This document shows positions 47,810 to 50,541 of a DNA stretch of 52,634 bases, piece after piece (position 1 is the first letter of the stretch; every line of letters begins with the position of its first letter). Origin of the DNA: Gemmatimonadota bacterium (GTDB lineage: Bacteria > Gemmatimonadota > Gemmatimonadetes > Longimicrobiales > Gaopeijiaceae); contig DQPL01000055.1 of assembly GCA_015664885.1 (NCBI GenBank), forward strand, positions 1 to 52,634. Direction: 5' to 3'. The notes beneath the pieces were generated by a model. It was not told the origin of the DNA. It was given only the letters and a program-made list of their open reading frames with translations, and made no database searches. The position numbers were made by a program, and so were the translations under genes.

Positions 47810-48034
47810 TCACCAGGAGAGGACCGCTTCCACCTCGTTCCCGCGTTCGTTGTAGTCGAGCGAAGTGCACAGCTGCTGCACTAGAGAGATTCCCCGGCCG
47901 CTCGGCGTATCGGATTCGTCGGGAGACGTCGACTCTTCCTTGCGCTTGAAGCCGGGCCCCGAGTCCTCGACCTTGATCCGGATGCGGCCACTGCCCGTCT
48001 TTTGTTCGCCATGCAGCGACACCGAGACGGAGCC
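47810..48034 (-). pseudogene. Serine-kinase-type ATPase domain fragment (anti-sigma-factor-like)
   Basis: The minus strand encodes RIRIKVEDSGPGF (ATP-binding G1 box) followed by GRGISLVQQLC (G2 box) and YNERGNEVEAVLSW, the C-terminal half of a HATPase_c domain like those of RsbW-type anti-sigma factors or fused response regulators. The N box and everything before are missing: upstream the region runs into plus-strand REC sequence. The fragment has no ribosome site. It is a remnant of a signalling protein. Confidence 0.65.
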
Positions 48035-48594
48035 ATCCGAGAGGCCATCGAAGCGTTGTGGGCTATCCCGTACGATTTGGTGCTGATGCGAACGCCATGA
48101 AGGGCGATCGTGAAGTCTGCCTCGAAGTAGGGATGAACGACTATCTGACCAAGCCGATCGACCTACGCGCGTTGGCTGACGCGCTCAAGCGATGGCTGCC
48201 AGCAGGGGAGCACGCTGTGGATGCCTTGGGCCAAAGTGAACAACCGGAGGTCATGAGTCATCCGTCGGTCTTCGACAGAGCCACTCTAAAGCGACGGCTC
48301 ATGGACGACGACGAGCTGACTAAGACTGTTGAATACGCCTTCCTGGAGGAGATCCCCACGCTGATCGAGGCGTTGAAGGACGGCTTGCAGGAGGGAGATG
48401 CCGAGCAAGTCGGGCGCCACGCGCACTCCATCAAGGGCGCATCCGCCAACGTGTGCCCCGAGGCGCTGCGTGATGTCGCGCACCAGATCGAGACGGCAGG
48501 CAGAGAGGGAGACTTGGGCCCAGCCCTCGCTCAAATGACCGATCTCGAAGTCCAGTTCGAGCTCGTGAAACAGGAGATGCTTCCGGCGGGGTAG
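48033..48594 (+). pseudogene. REC-Hpt remnant of a hybrid histidine kinase or response regulator
   Basis: REAIEALWAIPYDLVLM at about 48033-48096 is the REC strand just before the phospho-Asp. The next bases jump, in another frame, to NAMKGDREVCLEVGMNDYLT, the end of a REC domain (normally TANAMKGDREKCL...). The roughly 30-40 residues between, including the phosphorylatable Asp and its surroundings, are deleted. A full Hpt domain follows, with the phospho-His in RHAHSIKGASANV. The start is lost. The protein is therefore a broken phosphorelay output. Confidence 0.7.
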
Positions 48595-48903: not shown

Positions 48904-49500
48904 ATGCCCTACATCGAACAGATCGCCGTCGAAGACGCGACCGGGTGGCTGAGAAAACAGTTCGAGACGGCCCAAGAGCGTGCAGGCCGCGTGTGGCACA
49001 TCGTGCACGTCATGAGCCTCAATCCCCGCACGATGGATGCATCCCTGCGGTTGTACGGGGCGCTCATGTTCGGCGCTTCGCCACTCGCTCGTTGGCGACG
49101 CGAGATGCTCGCCGTGGTCACATCCCAGTTGAACGACTGCTTCTACTGAATTCAGGCGCACGCGCACGACCTCCGGGAAGAGGTCACGGATATACTCGCC
49201 ACCGACGAAGCTGCGGACGTCTTCGTGCACGCGATCGTCCGCGATTGGCGTGACGCGGAGCTGAGTGAAGCCGATCGAGCGCTTTGCGCCTATGCAGAGA
49301 AGTTGACGCTGCATCAGCACGAGGTGGGGCCGTCAGACCTCGACGTCCTGCGCTCGTTTTCATTCGACGACACCGCGATCCACGATGCCACGCAGATCAT
49401 CGGCTACTTCAACTACATCACGCGTGTCGCGGACGGGCTAGGGGTCGAACCGGAGGACTTCATCCGCCTTTGGGGTGAGGACGAGGCGACGCCCGGCTGA
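48904..49500 (+). CDS. CMD/AhpD-like peroxidase-related selenoprotein (in-frame TGA read as Sec)
   Basis: From ATG 48904: an N-terminal helix bundle (YIEQIAVEDATGWLRKQFE), then RREMLAVVTSQLNDCFY, a TGA at codon 82, then IQAHAHDLREEVTDILATDE and a family-like C-terminal half (LSEADRALCAYAEKLT, HDATQIIGYFNYITRVADGL). The frame is the same on both sides and ends at 49500, giving 198 residues, normal for the carboxymuconolactone-decarboxylase/AhpD superfamily. The TGA sits exactly where the second Cys of the redox CXXC lies (C79-F-Y-U82), and a hairpin follows (49168-49185). AhpD-like selenoproteins are known. No clear ribosome site precedes the ATG. The protein probably acts as a thiol/selenol peroxidase. 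Confidence 0.8.
49168..49185 (+). promoter_or_regulatory. Putative bacterial SECIS hairpin
   Basis: gacctc-cgggaa-gaggtc: a perfect 6-bp stem with a six-base loop, whose second base is G. It starts 18 bases after the TGA at 49147-49149; loop G 49175 is 26 bases after it, within the usual 16-37 base spacing of bacterial SECIS elements. It is also coding (part of HDLREEV). It would recruit SelB and Sec-tRNA. Confidence 0.65.
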
Positions 49501-49563: not shown

Positions 49564-50541
49564 ATGGAGACCAAAAGGCCAACGAGTCCCGCAGCCGAGG
49601 AGATCCTCGGAGGCTATTTCCCCGCGCTCGATCACGGGTTCGTAGCGCTCGTCGACTACATGGGCACCGACGATGACGTAGAGCGGGCGGCGCGCGTGAG
49701 CTACGGATACGGCACGCGGAAAGTGTCCGCGACGCGCGGGCTCGTCCGGTACCTACGCCGTCATCGGCACACCACGCCATCTGAGATGGTGGAGTTCAAG
49801 TTCCACTGCGCGATGCCGATGTTCGTGGCGCGGCAGTGGATACGGCATCGCACGGCCTCTATCAATGAGTATAGTGCCCGTTACAGCCTCATGCCGTTGC
49901 TCTACTACATGCCCGAGCGGGAGCAGTTCGCGCTTCAGAGTACGCAGAATCAGCAGGGCAGGGATGCGGGCACCTCGGACGCGGTGTACGCGGAGGCCAT
50001 TGAGCGCTGGCGGAGCCTGCGCGAGGCGGCGAGCGACGGCTACACCTGGATGGTCGGCGAGGACGTCGCGCGAGAAATCGCTCGCATCGACCTCCCGCTC
50101 TCGACCTATACCCAGTGGTACTGGAAGATCAATCTGCATAATCTCCTGCACTTTCTGTCGCTGCGCGTGGACCCTCACGCCCAATGGGAGATTCAGGTGT
50201 TCGCCGAGATCATCGCTGGCATGGTCAAGCGAGTCGCGCCGCTCTCCTACGAAGCGTGGGTAGACTACGATCTCGTGGGACAGCCCATGAGTCGCGCGGA
50301 GCTCGAGGTCTTGTCCCGACTCCTCGTCGGGGGCGAGCAGCAGATCTCCGCCCGGGACGGGGCCTCGTTGGACGCAGACCAACTCAAGGAAGCGGGGCTC
50401 TCGCCTCGAGAAGTCCGTGAGTTGATTGCGAAATTGCAGGCGCCGGCACGTCCGGACTTCGAGCTCGACCTGTCCAAAATGAAGTCGGCGGAGGAGGTCG
50501 GGAAGACGATGTCCGAGGCGGTGCCAGGGAGCTTCGAGTAG
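49564..50541 (+). CDS. thyX: FAD-dependent thymidylate synthase
   Basis: 325 residues from ATG 49564 (an in-frame start 27 bases upstream lacks support). The ThyX motif RHRTASINEYSARY occupies residues 94-107, matching RHRxxSxNExSxRY, and binds FAD and dUMP. Other conserved parts are HRHTTPSEMVEFKFH and WYWKINLHNLLHFLSLR. The enzyme makes dTMP using methylene-tetrahydrofolate and NADPH, replacing ThyA. The protein is longer than minimal ThyX (~230) by about 80 residues at the C-terminus, as seen in some bacteria. It follows the selenoprotein gene by 63 bases. Confidence 0.95.
   Translation: METKRPTSPAAEEILGGYFPALDHGFVALVDYMGTDDDVERAARVSYGYGTRKVSATRGLVRYLRRHRHTTPSEMVEFKFHCAMPMFVARQWIRHRTASINEYSARYSLMPLLYYMPEREQFALQSTQNQQGRDAGTSDAVYAEAIERWRSLREAASDGYTWMVGEDVAREIARIDLPLSTYTQWYWKINLHNLLHFLSLRVDPHAQWEIQVFAEIIAGMVKRVAPLSYEAWVDYDLVGQPMSRAELEVLSRLLVGGEQQISARDGASLDADQLKEAGLSPREVRELIAKLQAPARPDFELDLSKMKSAEEVGKTMSEAVPGSFE

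Follow-up and report, generated by a model that had tools for sequence, protein, structure and literature searches.

We identified a gene in a Gemmatimonadota genome that almost certainly encodes an AhpD-like, peroxidase-related selenoprotein, with selenocysteine (Sec) inserted at residue 82. The gene lies in a 52,634-nucleotide stretch of DNA, the whole of which is called the window below. That the selenoprotein gene is genuine, and that it belongs to the already known AhpD-like CxxU kind, is well supported. A preliminary description made from the window alone had proposed a Sec-containing AhpD/CMD-like protein here, and conservation of the TGA codon, an adjacent hairpin, the sel genes of the genome and the TIGR01926 score all support that proposal. 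Standard annotation would see the gene as broken, that is, as split or shortened at the TGA in its active site. The features discussed in the text are as follows.

48904..49500, + strand: AhpD-like (TIGR01926) selenoprotein gene, 198 residues, Sec at 82
49102..49104, + strand: Glu67 codon, first residue of the AhpD-type proton relay, invariant in the alignment
49147..49149, + strand: in-frame TGA, read as Sec (U82); same TGA in Sec-form relatives, TGC or TGT in Cys forms
49159..49161, + strand: His86 codon, last relay residue, invariant in the alignment
49168..49185, + strand: bacterial SECIS hairpin, stem GACCTC/GAGGTC, loop CGGGAA; fully paired in relatives
49564..50541, + strand: thyX, flavin-dependent thymidylate synthase (Pfam PF02511), conserved neighbour

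Gene and recoded codon

Once the TGA at 49147-49149 is taken as Sec, positions 48904-49500 of the forward strand form a single gene of 198 codons. This TGA is the sole internal stop-like codon, as had been noted, and translation through it gives 198 residues with Sec as U82. The real stop is a second TGA at 49498-49500, and the start Met is invariant in 39 aligned sequences. U82 occupies the second cysteine position of a CxxC motif, read here as C79-F-Y-U82 (CFYU); the earlier reading of the TGA as a replacement for that cysteine is borne out by homologues that carry Cys at exactly this codon. At the selenoprotein gene, scans for a promoter and for a terminator gave no match, and an obvious ribosome-binding site was not found.

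Conservation of the in-frame TGA

Relatives of the selenoprotein were recovered by search in 91 of 121 genomes of the family, and nearly all of the close ones contain the in-frame TGA. The codon is at the same place in all Sec-form relatives that were read, comprising 66 distinct sequences in a first set and 16 further sequences from elsewhere in the phylum. In the Sec clades, where codons were read directly, TGA at position 82 is always accompanied by the conserved Cys79. At this codon, eight relatives at a greater distance carry TGC or TGT. Relatives read across the phylum follow the same pattern, with one Cys form (L110), and the TGA is also present in relatives from records labelled Planctomycetota and Caldilineaceae. 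On this evidence, Sec AhpD-like proteins are widespread in Gemmatimonadales and relatives, often with two per genome.

Alternatively, the gene might be a damaged AhpD-like pseudogene whose active-site codon was altered by a nonsense mutation or a sequencing error, and the draft state of the assembly (136 contigs) and the truncated signalling fragments upstream of the gene are compatible with such damage. We nevertheless consider this explanation very improbable, as the same TGA recurs in dozens of genomes from several families with intact sequence on both sides, and in the records labelled Planctomycetota and Caldilineaceae, while the hairpin is conserved and the genome has a complete sel machinery. 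The possibility that homologues of this kind occur only as damaged copies had been raised at the outset; the relatives keep the TGA and are not isolated damaged copies.

Two relatives depart from the general pattern. L110 (genome G227), which is related to the Sec paralogues, has Cys at the Sec position (CRYC) and no intact hairpin of the ACGGAG type, as a Sec-to-Cys change would lead one to expect. L105 (genome G287), a Sec AhpD-like relative, contains one further in-frame TGA close to the N-terminus (IYR-U-NSGRYG), which is probably a sequence error or decay. A double-Sec (UxxU) reading was considered for relatives with two TGA codons and rejected, as in the loci read the second of these codons is the normal stop at the end of the gene, with the exception of L105.

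SECIS hairpin

The stem downstream of the recoded TGA consists of GACCTC (49168-49173) paired with GAGGTC (49180-49185), and the six-nucleotide loop CGGGAA occupies 49174-49179. The stem begins 18 nucleotides from the TGA and the loop 24 nucleotides from it. The preliminary description had reported a perfect six-base-pair hairpin with a G in its loop, 18 bases past the TGA, and every one of these details holds in the sequence. The published model of bacterial SECIS elements specifies a stem of 4–16 base pairs, a loop of 3–9 nucleotides with a G within its first two positions, a distance from UGA to loop of 16–37 nucleotides, and an energy of -7.5 kcal/mol or lower (PMC13188914). The hairpin fits this model with six base pairs, the loop CGGGAA, a distance of 24 nucleotides and an energy of -8.0 kcal/mol. 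Folded in isolation, it is short and marginal against the -7.5 kcal/mol limit.

Hairpins that pass these rules are not rare by chance. Among the 1258 TGA triplets in the window, 116 (about 9%) precede a rule-passing hairpin when the energy limit is set at -4 kcal/mol, and 6% do so at -7.5. The hairpin alone is thus weak evidence, not beyond chance. In addition, the folding energy of the 44-mer is ordinary for its composition (z -0.44); since this energy was uninformative for the single sequence, we relied on conservation. It is the conserved TGA position, pairing and synonymous codons that raise the hairpin above chance.

All six pairs are formed in each of 35 distinct close relatives (100% of cells). 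One pair changes from C-G to U-A in a compensatory manner, and another alternates between G-C and G-U. In slid controls, where the pairing partners were shifted by one to three columns, pairing fell to 25–50%, and the real score lies above all of them. Across 53 codon-aligned sequences the codons of the stem and of the beginning of the loop are frozen at the synonymous level, with Leu90 encoded by CTC and Glu93 by GAG in 53 of 53, and the Arg91 codon is CGG or CGT only; conserved Leu and Arg residues outside the hairpin use many codons in the same sequences. Such freezing of synonymous codons indicates that the constraint acts on the RNA and not on the protein.

The hairpin of the paralogous clade, to which a second gene copy of this genome (L077) belongs, differs in sequence (ACGGRG-CGGGN-CTCCGT, with the loop 16 nucleotides after the TGA), as does that of a third group (ACGCAGA-GTT-TCTGCGT). 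All three types have a G at loop position one or two, in keeping with the requirement of the bacterial model (PMC13188914). A strict filter that applies -7.5 kcal/mol to the bare hairpin misses 27 of 66 relatives whose six-base-pair stems are plainly present. With the filter at -4 or -5, the sole miss is L062, because the filter permits one G-U pair and the L062 stem runs through a second. The missed relatives reflect a limit of the hairpin filter. In isolation, GATCTC-type and ACGG-type hairpins do not reach the published energy limit, and they provide data for SECIS models.

Selenium machinery of the genome

The proposed selenoprotein had been taken to imply selA, selB, selC and selD in the genome, and all four were found: selB (327 bits over the cut-off), selA (545 bits), selD (381 bits) and a tRNA-Sec with anticodon UCA (67.9 bits over the gathering score), which ARAGORN calls as tRNA-SeC(tca). 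Within the family, selA was detected in 70 of 74 genomes with the Sec form and in one of 12 genomes with only Cys forms (Fisher p ~6e-10, uncorrected for phylogeny or shared ancestry). The four Sec-form genomes in which selA was not detected are each below 90% completeness.

The frame of the selenoprotein gene would also be open if TGA had been reassigned throughout the genome to another amino acid, such as Trp, rather than being recoded locally as Sec. This seems scarcely credible, and is the least probable of the readings considered here. The selenoprotein gene and many of its relatives terminate in TGA as a real stop, the internal codon aligns with Cys and not with Trp, and the genome contains tRNA-Sec(UCA) together with selA, selB and selD.

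At least two other genes of this genome contain in-frame TGA codons. The selD gene (L010, G000:C51:8526-9452) has its own in a TG-U-ACK context (TGUACK), and SelD is therefore itself a predicted selenoprotein. A second Sec AhpD-like gene (L077, G000:C93:7457-7993) also encodes CFYU and is ~43-45% identical; its SECIS hairpin is in a different register, with the loop 16 nucleotides after the TGA.

Protein family, fold and proposed activity

The protein scores 124.5 bits against the TIGR01926 model (peroxidase-related, AhpD-like; cut-off 81.8), with residues 4-185 aligned to profile positions 3-177 of 178, and it also matches the Pfam CMD domain (32 against 23). It is not a gamma-carboxymuconolactone decarboxylase proper, in which the CMD domain occurs without the AhpD CxxC relay, as the AhpD relay is present. 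The AlphaFold2 model of the selenoprotein has a pLDDT of 95, and its best Foldseek match is 6k40, AhpD of D. radiodurans (TM 0.85-0.90). PA0269 has a five-residue proton relay formed by Glu36, Cys48, Tyr50, Cys51 and His55, and M. tuberculosis AhpD has one likewise (PMC3141380). Residues E67, C79, Y81, U82 and H86 of the selenoprotein retain the AhpD-type spacing, which equals that of PA0269 (PMC3141380).

During translation, SelB carrying Sec-tRNA(Sec) would bind the hairpin just past the UGA, and the ribosome would place Sec at residue 82 to yield a full-length, all-helical protein of 198 residues. In this protein the Cys79/Sec82 pair, located at the start of a helix, would form an AhpD-type proton-relay active site with Glu67, Tyr81 and His86. 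By analogy, Sec82 appears to occupy the place of the second Cys in the catalytic pair, and it may act as the attacking nucleophile with Cys79 as the resolving thiol, so that the protein would reduce peroxides or serve as a thiol-disulfide adaptor. We infer that Sec is actually inserted, and likewise which residue attacks and what the substrate is. To our knowledge, the catalytic activity itself of TIGR01926 proteins is poorly characterised.

Foldseek also matches the model to the debrominase Bmp8 (6ohi/6ohj, E ~3e-5 to 5e-5) and, weakly, to human Sestrin2, with the Pfam sestrin match to the selenoprotein below its cut-off. These similarities leave some room for a selenoprotein with a different reaction, such as Bmp8-like reductive dehalogenation or a sestrin-like or thiol-adaptor role. 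We regard this as possible though unlikely, given that the nearest relatives of known structure are peroxidase-related AhpD-like proteins and that all five AhpD relay residues are retained. We infer peroxidase or thiol-redox chemistry for the selenoprotein, and peroxide or disulfide reduction is probably its activity, being the likeliest of those considered.

Genomic context

The thyX gene starts 63 nucleotides downstream of the selenoprotein gene on the same strand. The two genes adjoin in 19 loci from three genera. The neighbours differ in other genera, and an obligate functional link between the selenoprotein and thyX is therefore unlikely. It is improbable that the Sec AhpD-like protein works with ThyX, for instance by keeping the enzyme or its cofactor pool protected or reduced during oxidative stress. 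If true, such a partnership would link selenium to nucleotide synthesis, a connection not listed for the AhpD-like family. In the other genome of the same genus (G088; L031 1-1467, - strand), thyX is interrupted by an intein-like insert, which starts with CLAEGTEV, ends near VTHNS and contains an HNH-nuclease-like CxxC...H region. The thyX of the window is without this insert.

The surrounding genes had been described as frameshifted. This holds only in part: on the upstream side there are truncated signalling fragments, but the thyX and aldehyde dehydrogenase neighbours are intact. The fragments lie at 47810-48594 of the window, with a HATPase piece on the - strand and, on the + strand, a receiver-tail/Hpt piece; in none of the other loci searched was the Hpt piece detected. 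A transposase-like fragment with an HTH_21 domain is located at the contig end (51905-52507 of the window, - strand).

Comparison with known systems

Proteins of this kind have been catalogued for some time, in agreement with the preliminary description, which had noted that AhpD-like selenoproteins are known from metagenomic surveys. A 2005 study of the Sargasso Sea described AhpD-like CxxU proteins (PMC1088965). In the GOS survey of 2008, 'AhpD-like 1' ranked fourth by number among the selenoprotein families (PMC2398784), and a 2026 review places AhpD-like proteins, with CxxU as their motif, under TIGR01926 (PMC13188914). The present case brings out the lineage-specific SECIS hairpins of Sec AhpD-like proteins in Gemmatimonadales and relatives, and it changes no concept.

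The selenoprotein shares with the AhpD-like TIGR01926 CxxU selenoproteins of the surveys the family model, the CxxU motif and a bacterial SECIS directly past the TGA. Nothing of substance differs, although the Gemmatimonadota copy has a hairpin of distinct sequence and, in some genera, a thyX neighbour. With NF041238 (AhpD_rel_CFYUT, alkylhydroperoxidase-related (seleno)protein) it has the CFYU motif and an AhpD-like domain in common. However, that model is longer (357 positions) and the protein reaches only 58.5 bits against its cut-off of 175, and it therefore belongs to a different subfamily. The fold and the active-site region are shared with peroxidase-related AhpD-like proteins of the Cys form (6k40, 2pfx, 2oyo, 2prr and 3c1l), which have Cys at the second motif position where Sec is predicted here. 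Similarly, AhpD of M. tuberculosis and PA0269 of P. aeruginosa (PMC3141380) have the same E-x11-C-x-[HY]-C-x3-H relay spacing, whereas their second Cys is replaced by predicted Sec in the present protein and the overall sequence similarity is low.
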